This document shows, piece after piece, positions 2,585-24,898 of a stretch of 36,103 nt of DNA. The position numbers were made by a program, and so were the translations under genes. Positions within the stretch are counted from its first letter, which is position 1. Every line of letters begins with the position of its first letter. The DNA is taken from the NCBI GenBank assembly GCA_002396385.1, contig DGTD01000053.1, positions 7,810-43,912 on the forward strand, written 5' to 3'. The notes under the pieces were generated by a model. That model did not search any database and was not told where the DNA came from. It was given only the letters and a program-made list of their open reading frames with translations. The DNA comes from Bacteroidales bacterium UBA4345. GTDB taxonomy: Bacteria > Bacteroidota > Bacteroidia > Bacteroidales > Paludibacteraceae.

Positions 2585-4420
2585 TTAGTCAATAATTCTT
2601 ACACCGCCTTTGTCGGCCGAAGCAACCATTTTCGCATAGCAGCGAAGAGCTTTAGAGACAACGCGGTCGCGTTTAGGCTGCCAAGCGTTGGCGCCTTTGG
2701 CATCTTCTTGTTTGCGTCGTTCTGCCAGTTCTGCATCGGTCAGTTTGACGTTGATAGAACGGTTTGGAATATCGATTTCAATGGTGTCGCCATCGCGAAC
2801 GAGACCAATGTTACCACCAGATGCAGCTTCAGGTGAAATGTGTCCGATGGAAAGTCCGGAGGTTCCGCCAGAGAAACGGCCGTCAGTAATAAGGGCACAT
2901 TCCTTACCCAAGTGAATAGACTTTATGTAACTGGTAGGGTATAGCATCTCTTGCATACCAGGTCCACCTTTAGGGCCCTCGTAAGTAATGACAACCACGT
3001 CGCCCGCCTTGATTTTCCCGCCAAGAATACCCTCGCAAGCGTCTTCTTGAGAGTTGAACACCTTAGCGGTGCCGTTAAACTTCCAGATGCTTTCATCGAC
3101 GCCAGCCGTCTTAACGACGCAACCATCTTTTGCAATGTTACCGAAGAGTACGGCCAAACCACCATCTTTCGTGTAAGCGTGTTCAATGTCGCGAATGCAG
3201 CCGTTAGCACGATCGGTGTCAAGCGAGTCGTAAGTGCAACTTTGAGAACCCATCTTGTTGCTGAATTGGAAAGCCGGAGCAGTAGAGTAGATGCGTTTTG
3301 CCTCGGCCTCGACATTAGCCTTCATGATAGAGTAGAAATCCAAATCTTCAGCCAAAGTGTGTCCGTTGACGCGCTTTAACTTGGTGTTGAGAAGTCCACC
3401 CTTAGCCAGTTCGCCAAGAATGCCGAGAATACCACCAGCGCGGTTACACTCTTGAATAGAGTATTTTGCGGTGTTAGGAGCCAGTTTGCAGAGGCAAGGT
3501 ACTTTTCTGGAAAGCCCGTCTATATCCACCATCTTGAAATCAACACCGCCTTCGTTAGCCACAGCAAGCAAATGAAGAATGGTGTTGGTGGAACCTCCCA
3601 TCGCAATGTCGAGCGTCATGGCGTTCAAGAAAGCGTCGCGTGTGGCAATGCTTCTAGGCAAAACGCTGTCGTCGCCGTCGCGGTAATACTTATAGGCATT
3701 TTCCACTATCTGTTTAGCCGCGTCTTTGAAGAGCTGAATGCGGTTGGTGTGAGTGGCCAGGATAGTACCATTGCCAGGCAGAGACAAGCCGATGGCTTCG
3801 GTCAGCGAGTTCATAGAGTTGGCAGTGAACATACCCGAGCAGCTGCCGCAACCAGGACAGGCATGGTGCTCGATCTCGTTCATTTCGTCATCGCTGATGC
3901 TCTTGTCGGCGCCTTTGACCATGGCGGTGATAAGGTCGATGTTTTCGCCTTTCCATTTTCCAGCCTCCATTGGGCCACCCGAACAGAACACAGCAGGTAT
4001 GTTCAGGCGCATAGCAGCCATCAGCATGCCCGGAGTGATTTTATCGCAGTTAGAAATACAAATCATCGCATCGGCCTTGTGAGCGTTGACCACGTATTCA
4101 ACCGAGTCGGCAATGAGGTCACGGGAAGGAAGCGAGTAAAGCATACCGTCGTGTCCCATAGCGATACCGTCGTCGATAGCGATAGTGTCGAATTCTGCCG
4201 CATAACAACCCAACTTTTCGATTTCCTCTTTCACGATTTGTCCGATTTCGTGTAAGTGGGTGTGTCCAGGAACGAATTGGTTGAACGAGTTGACAATGGC
4301 AATGATAGGTTTGCCAAATTGTTCTTTCTTCATACCATTAGCGACCCACAGGGCGCGGGCTCCAGCCATACGGCGTCCTTCTGTGCAGACAGAACTGCGA
4401 AGCTTGTTCTTGTATTCCAT
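2585..4420 (-). CDS. ilvD: dihydroxy-acid dehydratase
   Basis: This iron-sulfur enzyme dehydrates dihydroxy acids to 2-oxo acids, the step after ilvC. From the start chosen here it has 611 residues, close to the 616 of E. coli IlvD, and begins [20 protein letters not shown]. Cluster-binding cysteines are visible in [12 protein letters not shown] (about C125) and [19 protein letters not shown] (about C188, C191, C194). The sequence resembles the oxygen-sensitive [4Fe-4S] type around [11 protein letters not shown]. An in-frame ATG at 4453 would add 11 residues, but it lies in the U-tract of the attenuator terminator, so I reject it. It is the first structural gene of ilvDBNC and is the one directly gated by the leader-peptide attenuator. 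Confidence 0.95.
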
Positions 4421-4454
4421 TATAATGAGTTTTGTTTTGTTATTGTCTATCATA

Positions 4455-4487
4455 CAAAAAAACCTTCCTCAAAAAAGAGAAAGGTTT
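4455..4487 (-). terminator. ilv attenuator: intrinsic terminator in the leader
   Basis: Read on the minus strand this is an 11-bp stem, AAACCTTTCTC / GAGGAAGGTTT, with one G-T wobble (arms 4487-4477 and 4470-4460). The loop is six T, and a T-tract runs to 4455. It ends about 35 bases before the ilvD start. Its left arm can instead pair with 4525-4517 (AAGAGAGGG, 9 bp including two G-T pairs), which would be the antiterminator. This makes it a conditional terminator rather than an end-of-gene terminator. Confidence 0.85.
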
Positions 4488-4528
4488 GTATTATTTATTG
4501 AAATAGTACCTACATACCCTCTCTTGTC

Positions 4529-4588
4529 TTAATAGCCCACCACGACCACCACGACAGAGAAAATAATATGGAGCGACTTTTTCATCAT
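4529..4588 (-). CDS. ilv operon leader peptide (attenuation peptide)
   Basis: This 19-codon ORF encodes MMKKSLHIIFSVVVVVVGY and stops with TAA at 4531-4529. Nine of 19 residues are branched-chain amino acids: one Leu, two adjacent Ile and six consecutive Val codons (GTC GTG GTG GTC GTG GTG, 4555-4538). It lies about 12 bases downstream of the expected transcription start and upstream of the terminator at 4455-4487, the arrangement of classical ilv leader peptides. The bases TCTCTGTC at 4560-4553, just at the first Val codon, can pair with GACaAGAGA at 4528-4520. A ribosome stalled on Val codons would mask that arm, free 4525-4517 to form the antiterminator and let RNA polymerase reach ilvD. 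An alternative start is the second ATG at 4585. Confidence 0.82.
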   Translation of the reverse strand: MMKKSLHIIFSVVVVVVGY

Positions 4589-4606
4589 TCTGTTCTTATT
4601 ACTATG

Positions 4607-4614
4607 CAAATATA
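4607..4614 (-). promoter_or_regulatory. ilv operon promoter (-7 box)
   Basis: The minus strand reads TATATTTG at 4614-4607, an exact TAnnTTTG. The expected start near 4600 leaves about 12 bases before the leader-peptide ATG at 4588. The -33 region is not a clear TTTG. The position fits the leader peptide and terminator so well that I take it as the operon promoter. Confidence 0.7.
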
Positions 4615-4673
4615 GTTAAATTTTCTGTCATTGTTAAATTTTGCCTATATAATTTGCGGGCTTTATGCGTTTA

Positions 4674-5144
4674 TTAATCTGTTTTTTCGGATATTTTCCA
4701 CCGTAACCTCCAAACACCCTCGTTAAATGAAGAACTGACGATCTTAAACGTTCCAATTTGGCTGGTATTGTCAACGTGCGACCCAATGCATAGGCAGGCG
4801 TCGTAATCGCCAATTTTCACGATTCTGACGTTTTCGGATGCATTTTCTGGCAAACGTTTCAGATTGTATTTGTTTTTAGCCTCTTGCTGGGTCGTGAATT
4901 CAAAGGTGACGGGTAGGTTTTGACGTATAACCTTGTTGACTTCTTCTTCGAGAGCTTGAATTTGTTGCATCGAGGGTTCGTTTTGAAGAGCGAAATCCAT
5001 CTTCGACTTTTTCCGTTCGATATGTGCTTCAAGGGCACGTTCGCATCCGAACAGCCTAATCATGGCCTGGTTAATGATGTGCTCGGTGGTGTGTGCGGGT
5101 GGAAACTCTTTCTTATTGTGGGCATTGAATTCGGTTTGTTCCAT
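4674..5144 (-). CDS. AlaX-like free-standing alanyl-tRNA editing protein
   Basis: This 156-residue protein resembles the editing domain of alanyl-tRNA synthetase (the 'second additional domain' fold shared with ThrRS). The zinc site of this family is visible: H18-TTE-H22 (HTTEH, the HxxxH motif) and C119-IGS-H123 (CxxxH). Family members hydrolyse mischarged Ser-tRNA or Gly-tRNA for Ala, or related mistakes, in trans in the cytoplasm. All four metal ligands are present, so it is probably active; the substrate cannot be read from the sequence. It follows rpsP but is separated from it by a strong terminator, so it probably has its own weak promoter or relies on read-through. I saw no TAnnTTTG box in the 70 bases upstream. 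ATG at 5144 is the natural start. Confidence 0.75.
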   Translation of the reverse strand: MEQTEFNAHNKKEFPPAHTTEHIINQAMIRLFGCERALEAHIERKKSKMDFALQNEPSMQQIQALEEEVNKVIRQNLPVTFEFTTQQEAKNKYNLKRLPENASENVRIVKIGDYDACLCIGSHVDNTSQIGTFKIVSSSFNEGVWRLRWKISEKTD

Positions 5145-22201: not shown

Positions 22202-24898
22202 ATGGAATTAGCAAGTAAATACAATCCGTCCGAAGTGGAGGATAAATGGTATCAGTACTGGCTTAAAAATGGCTTTTTCAAGTCAAAGCCAGATGGAAGA
22301 AAACCTTATACAGTTGTCATTCCTCCGCCAAATGTGACGGGAGTCCTTCATATGGGACATATGCTTAATAATACCATTCAGGATATCTTAGTGCGTCGTG
22401 CCCGTATGCAGGGATTTAACGCATGTTGGGTGCCAGGTACAGACCACGCCTCAATTGCAACGGAGGCTAAGGTTGTAAACAAGCTTGCTAGTGAGGGTAT
22501 AAAGAAGAAAGACCTTACCCGCGAACAGTTCCTTGAGCATGCTTGGGACTGGACTAGAAAACACGGAGGCATCATCCTAGAACAGTTGAAGAAGCTTGGT
22601 GCTTCATGTGATTGGGACCGCACTGCTTTCACCATGGATGATAAACGCTCGGAATCGGTTCTTAAGGTTTTCGTTGACCTTTATGAAAAGGGCTTGATTT
22701 ATCGCGGTCTTCGCATGGTTAACTGGGATCCTAAAGCTCAGACTGTGCTTTCAACTGAAGAGGTTATTTACCGTGATGAGAAGAGCAAACTTTTCTACTT
22801 GAAATACTATGTGCAGGATAGTGAGGCTGTTAAACTTACCGGTGAAGAGGGTGAAGTTTTCCACAAAGATGAGAAAGGCTACTATGCAGTAGTTGCTACA
22901 ACACGTCCTGAAACTATCATGGGTGATACTGCAATGTGTATCAATCCAAAGGATCCAAAGAACCAGTGGTTGAAGGGTCACAAGGTGATTGTTCCATTGG
23001 TTGGCAGAGTAATTCCTGTTATTGAAGACCGTTATGTAGATGTTGAGTTCGGTACCGGATGTTTGAAGGTTACTCCTGCTCACGATGTAAACGACTATGC
23101 ACTCGGCAAGACACATGGCCTTGAAACTATCGACATTTTCAATGCAGACGGTACTATCTCAGAAGCAGCTGGAATGTATGTCGGACAGGATCGTTTCGAT
23201 GTTCGTAAGCAGATTGCAATAGATCTTGACAACGCAGGTTTGCTTGAAAAGGTTGAGGATTACAATAATAAGGTTGGTTATTCAGAGCGTAACCAAGATA
23301 CAGCAGTTGAACCACGTCTTTGCAAGCAGTGGTTCCTTTCAATGCAGCACTTCGCAGACATCGCTCTTCCGCCTGTTGTAAACGGTGAGTTGAAATTCTA
23401 TCCTTCTAAATATGTAACTACATATAAGAATTGGTTGGAGAACATTCAGGATTGGTGTATCTCTCGTCAGTTGTGGTGGGGGCATAGAATACCTGCTTAT
23501 TTCTTACCAACAGAAGAAGGTGCAGAAGAAAAATTCGTTGTAGCTCTTACCGTAGAGGATGCTTTGGCAAAGGCTAAGAAGATTGCTGGTTACGAAAATA
23601 TTACAGCAGATCAACTTGTTCGGGACGAGGATGCTCTTGATACATGGTTCTCTTCTTGGTTGTGGCCAATCTCGTTGTTCGATGGCATTAACAATCCTGG
23701 TAACGAGGAAATCAATTATTATTATCCGACAAGTGACTTGGTTACAGGTCCGGATATCATCTTCTTCTGGGTTGCACGTATGATTATGGCTGGTTATGAA
23801 TACCAGGGCAAGATGCCTTTCCGCAACGTATATTTCACTGGTATTGTACGTGACAAGATTGGTCGTAAGATGTCAAAGAGTTTGGGTAACTCACCAGACC
23901 CATTAGACTTGATTGCTACATACGGTGCCGACGGTGTCCGTATGGGTATGATGCTTTCTGCGCCTGCCGGTAACGATATCTTGTTCGATGACGCGCTTTG
24001 CGAACAGGGACGTAACTTCAATAACAAGATTTGGAACGCATTCCGTTTGGTTAAGGGATGGGATGTTGACGATAAACTGGCACAGCCTGAAACTGCTAAA
24101 CTTGCAATTAAGTGGTTTGGTGAACAGTTGAACAAGACTATCATTGAAATTGACGACTGCTTCAGCAAGTATCGTCTTAGCGAGGCTTTGATGGCTGTTT
24201 ACAAATTGTTCAGAGACGAATTCTCTGCATGGTATTTGGAAATGGTTAAACCTGAGTACCAGCACCCAATCGACGCTGCTACTTTGAACGCAACACTCGG
24301 CTTCTTCGAATCGTTGTTGAAGTTGTTGCACCCATTCATGCCGTTCATTACCGAAGAGCTTTACCAGGCAATCAGCGACAGAGACGCAACCGACTCTATT
24401 ATGGTAGCACAGCAGCCTAAAGCCTCTTCTTTCGATGAAACCGTTATCTCTAAGATGGAAGTGACGAAAGAACTTATTGCCGGTGTTCGTAATTTGAGAG
24501 CTGAAAAGGGTATTAGCCCTCGTAAGGAGTTTGAGCTCTTCTATAACGGAAATCTCGATTGCAGCAATAACGCTTTGATTCAGAAATTGGCTAATATTAC
24601 ATCGATAAAAGCGTCAGAAAACAATATAGATGGCGCTACCGCATCGTTTATGGTTGGAACTGTTGAATGTATTGTTCCGCTTGGCGATACCATTGATGTA
24701 GAGGCTGAAGTTAAGAAGATTGAGGCTGACATCAAGTATTACGAAGGTTTCTTGATTTCTGTAGAGAAGAAGTTGGGCAATGAGAAGTTTGTGGCTCACG
24801 CTAAACCAGAAGTTGTAGAAGTTGAACGAAAGAAAAAGGCAGACGCTGAATCAAAGTTGGCAACATTAAAGGCAAATCTTGCCGCATTAAAGAAATAA
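22202..24898 (+). CDS. valS: valyl-tRNA synthetase
   Basis: This 898-residue class Ia synthetase charges tRNA-Val. The catalytic Rossmann fold carries the HIGH variant in [12 protein letters not shown] (about 50) and the KMSKS loop in [14 protein letters not shown] (about 555). Between them is the editing domain that clears Thr-tRNA(Val), containing [14 protein letters not shown] and [19 protein letters not shown]. The segment [16 protein letters not shown] is diagnostic. The C-terminal 70 residues form the tRNA-binding coiled-coil arm ([19 protein letters not shown] ... [14 protein letters not shown]). The length is normal and all key motifs are intact. Transcribed from the strong promoter at 22141-22172, divergently from the LRR operon, and coupled to ndk one base downstream. 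Confidence 0.97.

Follow-up and report, generated by a model that had tools for sequence, protein, structure and literature searches.

The leader of the E. coli ilvXGMEDA operon, which encodes the leader peptide IlvL (b3766), is a four-arm switch, and a switch of this kind is what we propose here for an ilv operon of the Bacteroidales. The ilvL leader resembles ours in having a short ORF rich in codons for branched-chain amino acids (BCAA) with a terminator downstream. It differs in its mixture of Ile, Val and Leu codons, in its length of 32 codons, and in that a simple search found a weak arm 2 (-5.6 kcal/mol). The leader peptide of ilvBN, IvbL (b3672), shares with our locus a short ORF with Val runs (MTTSMLNAKLLPTAPSAAVVVVRVVVVVGNAP), a strong terminator and an acetolactate synthase gene. 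It is nevertheless unrelated in sequence, has 32 codons compared to 19 here, and precedes genes in a different order; moreover, the arm 2 picked by our search lies 1 nt after the first base of a Val codon, compared to 12-18 nt in the Bacteroidota.

As far as the listings of our literature searches show, no publication treats an ilv attenuator in the Bacteroidales. Within the phylum, one sentence in a passage on Flavobacterium psychrophilum speaks of 'strong clues' for leader peptides ahead of amino acid operons (PMC9723704), and a passage on B. thetaiotaomicron describes sORFs 'reminiscent of leader peptides' (PMC7366714). The mechanism is old and its presence in the phylum has already been noted, but a group-wide ilv device appears to be undescribed within the searchable literature. 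What is new here is the breadth of its occurrence in the Bacteroidales, the spacing of its codons, and the coupling of transcription and translation that it would imply in leaders with hardly any Shine-Dalgarno-like sites.

Results

Anatomy of the leader and the genes behind it

The window, by which we mean the whole 36,103-nt stretch of DNA that was analysed, carries on its minus strand, in this order, a TATATTTG box, a short ORF, an arm 2 and an intrinsic terminator, followed by ilvD, ilvB and ilvN. The box (4614-4607) has the form of a promoter -7 element, TAnnTTTG. The ORF, MMKKSLHIIFSVVVVVVGY with a TAA stop (4588-4529), comprises 19 codons, including six consecutive Val, two Ile and one Leu (ATG ATG AAA AAG TCG CTC CAT ATT ATT TTC TCT GTC GTG GTG GTC GTG GTG GGC TAT TAA). 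Direct reading confirmed what the initial annotation had given for the box, the ORF and the Val and Ile counts, and both elements recur in relatives, where the same box is found and BCAA-rich ORFs occupy the same place. As a correction to that account, the ORF has two start codons in tandem (4588 and 4585). The run of Val codons (4555-4538), which we propose to be the control codons, begins at 4555, and the first bases of the six codons lie 15-30 nt upstream of 4525; counted on both strands, no other run of six GTN codons occurs in the window.

An intrinsic terminator (4487-4456) separates the ORF from the first gene. Its stem of 11 pairs (4487-4460) has arm 3 (4487-4475) on the left and arm 4 (4470-4460) on the right, and the T-run (4462-4456) begins with three T inside the stem. 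Arm 4 and the T-run were assigned by terminator search and reading, and arm 3, which would also serve as the 3′ strand of the antiterminator, additionally by alignment of relatives. This is the one terminator-like site in 4400-4700, against a mean of 0.1 in shuffles. Arm 2, GACAAGAGAGGG (4528-4517), is the putative 5′ strand of the antiterminator and adjoins the leader stop codon; we assigned it by reading and by its pairing with arm 3 (2:3) in relatives. Its part GACAAGAGA (4528-4520) is the putative partner of arm 1, TCTCTGTC (4560-4553), whose coordinates were read directly, which is paired in the minimum-energy fold, and which we propose to bind arm 2 when free of ribosomes (1:2). The overlapping part AAGAGAGGG (4525-4517) can form nine pairs, two of them G-T, with 4483-4475 in arm 3. 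The arms of the two competing pairings that had been drawn from the letters alone lie at the bases given for them. For the leader as a whole (4600-4454) the computed folding energy is -45.2 kcal/mol (z -5.17), a value that none of 200 shuffles attained.

The first gene after the leader, also on the minus strand, is ilvD (4420-2585), which encodes dihydroxy-acid dehydratase (NF009103 and TIGR00110, above cut-off). Its start was placed by homology at ATG 4420, at or near which IlvD begins in relatives, and not at 4453. It is followed on the same strand by ilvB (2575-860; acetolactate synthase large subunit, TIGR00118 above cut-off), ilvN (854-309; small subunit, TIGR00119 above cut-off) and the 5′ part of ilvC (154-1, first codon 154-152; PF07991), which leaves the window. 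A second promoter-like box, TAAATTTG at 242-235, precedes ilvC and suggests a separate ilvC promoter. Because of this box, the leader may not be the sole control of ilvC, which the initial annotation had included with ilvDBN behind the attenuator.

Leaders of the same layout ahead of ilvD in relatives

Among named relatives, Candidatus Physcocola equi (Bacteroidales, Paludibacteraceae) is the closest (IlvD 92%). IlvD was detected in 93 of 150 genomes of the family, 136 of 295 of the order and 214 of 296 of the phylum (the last mostly at 34-57% identity among the matches listed), as well as at 49 named loci. Upstream regions were taken for a subset of these matches, comprising 90 family, 49 named, 108 order and 29 phylum loci together with 20 loci of the same class, and removal of identical regions left 287 distinct upstreams. 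The start codon is uncertain at five loci (L100, L114, L124, L125 and L136). Our detection rule called for an ATG ORF 8-40 codons long in which five or more of eight residues are Ile, Leu or Val, and for a hairpin of -8 kcal/mol or lower with a T-run, located in the interval between 5 nt ahead of the ORF end and 80 nt beyond it. The thresholds were fixed after the first relatives had been inspected, so the counts are descriptive, and shuffles and antisense strands serve as the controls.

A BCAA-rich short ORF with a terminator, cognate to the operon as are the six Val, two Ile and one Leu codons before ilvDBN, was found in 152/287 upstreams, compared to 5/1,435 shuffles and 0/287 antisense strands; the loci share ancestry and are not independent, and these statistics are uncorrected for kinship. 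By group, the positives were 51/87 (family), 18/48 (named), 75/105 (order), 3/27 (phylum) and 5/20 (class), and the 18 named ones include Parabacteroides, Tannerella, Bacteroides sp. UBA939 and Odoribacter laneus. None of the ten named loci that lie outside the Bacteroidota by title was positive (L032, titled Clostridium sp., was left out of the ten). The three 'phylum' positives (L246, L249 and L252) were judged by eye to be chance occurrences and were dropped before later counts, which reduced the set from 152 to 149. The rule failed in 135/287 upstreams, and some of these are misses, since in nine of them a promoter box is followed by an ORF in which six or more of eight residues are BCAA, unlike in the remaining 126. 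Within the family, loci at which ilvD is leaderless by the rule include L006-L009, L018, L020, L022, L023, L025, L026 and L028-L030, which belong mostly to genera g15, g19 and g25.

In 129 of the 149 leaders the last 60 nt ahead of the ATG contain a TAnnTTTG box, at a median box-to-ATG distance of 23 nt (n = 129), compared to 6/149 for the next 60 nt upstream; in a passage of a study within the phylum this motif is named as the Bacteroidota box (PMC9723704). In 5/149 leaders the 20 nt that precede the ATG contain a Shine-Dalgarno-like site (AGGA or GGAG).

Conservation of the proposed antiterminator and terminator pairings

Arm 2 was located in each of the 149 leaders solely through its pairing to the terminator left arm, relative to 100 shuffles. 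The 2:3 pairing was better than in shuffles at p ≤ 0.05 in 115 leaders and at p ≤ 0.01 in 71, and the medians place arm 2 at -3 to +9 relative to the end of the ORF. The window's own leader is borderline when taken alone (p 0.05). Across all 149 leaders, unselected, arm 2 paired more strongly with its own arm 3 than with those of other species (mean -12.3 versus -10.0 kcal/mol), and the own arm 3 beat 90% of the foreign ones in 52/149 cases compared to 14.9 expected; the window's arm 2 showed no such preference (rank 0.7).

We considered covariation in an alignment of 87 leaders that were picked for 2:3 at p ≤ 0.02, a choice which favours 2:3. Paired cells amounted to 752/861 (87.3%) for 2:3 and 655/694 (94.4%) for the terminator pairing 3:4, against row-shuffle maxima of 82.3% and 89.0%, respectively. 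Cells altered on both sides numbered 63 (2:3) and 55 (3:4), whereas none of 500 row shuffles gave more than 31 and 26, respectively. The count of extra pair types was not above row shuffles for either helix (24 versus a maximum of 25 for 2:3; 18 versus 18 for 3:4). Compensatory changes are thus present in relatives for an antiterminator whose formation would exclude the terminator.

Codon spacing and the amino acid that may be sensed

Counted back codon by codon from arm 2, the share of Ile, Leu and Val is 0.13, 0.05, 0.16, 0.61, 0.92, 0.96 and 0.89 in the 115 of 149 leaders with 2:3 at p ≤ 0.05. There is accordingly a step 4-6 codons before arm 2, which is not built into the analysis because arm 2 was located independently of the codons, and the Val codons of the window stand 15-30 nt before 4525. 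Ribosomes extend about 12 nt past the codon that occupies the A site; a ribosome on one of the BCAA codons would therefore reach to the edge of arm 2, and a ribosome at the stop codon would cover arm 2. This spacing is a prediction of stalling-controlled masking and not of a small functional protein. The his and trp leaders described below, for which a cruder search against the whole hairpin was used, did not show it, and neither did ilvL and ivbL of E. coli in the simple arm-2 search; for this reason we regard it as established for the ilv leaders of the Bacteroidota only.

The initial annotation had suggested valine as the main signal. This fits the genus, in which the leaders of two relatives contain five and six Val codons compared to six here, but it does not carry over to the group at large, in which the codon totals of the 115 leaders are 496 Val, 420 Leu and 333 Ile.

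Leaders ahead of other amino acid operons

Within the family, a His-run leader with a terminator precedes hisG in 12 of the 29 loci examined (30 were fetched), and a Trp-run leader precedes trpB in 19/26 loci (20/26 with a longer upstream region; 0/26 on the antisense strand). Like the ilv leaders these have a run of specifier codons, a stop codon and a terminator, but they specify other amino acids, and, judged by eye, arm 2 of the trp leaders apparently pairs with the hairpin loop and right arm. Pairing of arm 2 reached p ≤ 0.05 in 8/12 his and 12/19 trp leaders. The genome from which the window derives contains one of each. Its His-rich leader, MSVSHIHHHHQR (L437; G000:C35:11539-13000, minus strand), lies about 640 nt before hisG, preceded by a TACTTTTG box and followed by a terminator hairpin of -17.0 kcal/mol. 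Its Trp leader, MTLKTLNKVWWWRLRN (L353; G000:C105), lies about 200 nt before trpB, and the hairpin and T-rich tail downstream of it were read by eye and not called by the terminator search; TCGTGAG after the stop codon is pairable, again by eye, with CTCACGA in the hairpin loop and right arm, a topology unlike that of ilv. No Thr/Ile-rich leaders were found before aspartokinase genes (0/30) and no Leu-rich ones before leuC (0/30) in searches that covered 700 nt upstream, a length at which leaders in front of a gene situated earlier in the operon would be missed. A pattern search of the window's own genome for His codons was too unspecific to be of use.

Discussion

The leader ORF, the promoter box, the terminator, the possible alternative pairings, their conservation and the codon spacing are all observations from sequence and comparison, and this comparative anatomy lends support to the initial reading of the locus as an attenuator. 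We consider it very likely that ilvDBN is controlled by ribosome-mediated (leader-peptide) transcription attenuation as in enteric bacteria. With ample Val-tRNA, the ribosome would reach the leader stop codon and cover arm 2, or would depart and allow 1:2 to form; either way, arm 3 would pair with arm 4 and RNA polymerase would stop in the T-run at 4462-4456. If Val-tRNA became scarce, stalling would occur at one of the six Val codons, which lie 15-30 nt upstream of 4525, and the stalled ribosome would mask arm 1; arm 2 would then be free to form 2:3, no terminator would arise, and ilvDBN would be transcribed. From the anatomy we infer translation of the ORF, stalling, the choice between termination and read-through, and transcription and translation that run close together.

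A part of this scheme with weaker support is the protector (or pause) hairpin 1:2. In a simpler, three-arm version there would be no working 1:2 hairpin and arm 2 would be masked solely by a ribosome parked at the stop codon, such that in the complete absence of translation the operon would be on, the opposite of the trp-type default. The position of arm 2, which starts at the stop codon and would therefore be covered by a terminating ribosome, fits such a device, as does a duplex-only test of 1:2 in which the count was near chance (20/149 at p ≤ 0.05). A partition-function test spoke for 1:2. The mean probability that arm 2 is paired upstream is 0.77, compared to 0.64 with synonymous and 0.61 with permuted codons (n = 115), and 1:2 reaches p ≤ 0.05 in 30/115 leaders against synonymous codons, 36/115 against permuted codons and 46/115 against shuffles, although it is individually non-significant in most relatives in the synonymous and permuted-codon tests. 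In the window itself, none of 60 shuffles matched it, with p 0.017 for synonymous and 0.05 for permuted codons (0.08 in the cruder duplex test). We therefore regard the three-arm version as rather unlikely. The conservation in relatives that the initial annotation had proposed to look for is accordingly present for the ORF and for 2:3; for 1:2 it takes the form of pairing strength relative to randomised codons, and the support is weaker than for 2:3.

Two further readings dispense with ribosome-controlled switching at the leader. The ORF might encode a small functional protein or be a chance ORF, with the hairpin terminating a small RNA and no switching taking place; Val-rich ORFs can resemble membrane peptides, and a small RNA, too, would have a promoter and a terminator. 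This is very improbable given that the layout arose in just 5/1,435 shuffles, that beyond subgroups of close relatives the peptides have little in common except BCAA content and spacing to arm 2, and that arm 2, which would have no role in such a model, nonetheless co-varies with arm 3. Alternatively, a metabolite riboswitch, a T-box or a protein-bound leader might make use of the hairpins, the ORF being incidental. The leader is structured, as its z score shows, and four sub-threshold Rfam matches (E ≤ 1) fall in 4400-4660, the best of which is MicX (E 0.00012, 28.3 bits compared to a gathering score of 75). At gathering score, however, no Rfam 15 family was found in the window, the regions of 20 relatives yielded two tRNAs only, and the specifier codons shift with the operon (Val/Ile/Leu, His or Trp), all of which makes this reading every bit as improbable as the small protein.

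Returning to ribosome-mediated attenuation, we judge it evenly balanced whether the Bacteroidia as a group use attenuators that sense tRNA charging for ilv, his and trp at least, the leaders being translated for the most part without Shine-Dalgarno sites and, in ilv, having an antiterminator arm on or beside the stop codon. If true, this would imply that the first ribosome closely tracks RNA polymerase; to our knowledge there has been no test of transcription-translation coupling of such a kind in this phylum. It poses a testable question, namely whether coupling in the Bacteroidota is tight enough for ribosome-mediated attenuation despite the scarcity of Shine-Dalgarno sites. The leaders of the Bacteroidia may have arisen independently of those of proteobacteria. 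In practical terms, a leader recognisable by eye and equipped with specifier codons would allow the amino acid regulon of every Bacteroidales genome to be read, and the alignments of Bacteroidota ilv leaders obtained here suffice to start an RNA family.

The window that contains the Val-rich leader also contains a valyl-tRNA synthetase-like gene (22202-24898; a class I tRNA synthetase with Val_tRNA-synt_C), and this co-occurrence is possibly a coincidence. Directly upstream of the leader, at 4674-5144, a stand-alone protein of 156 aa has matches to the domain tRNA_SAD and to part of AlaS/AlaX, and is perhaps a trans-editing factor.
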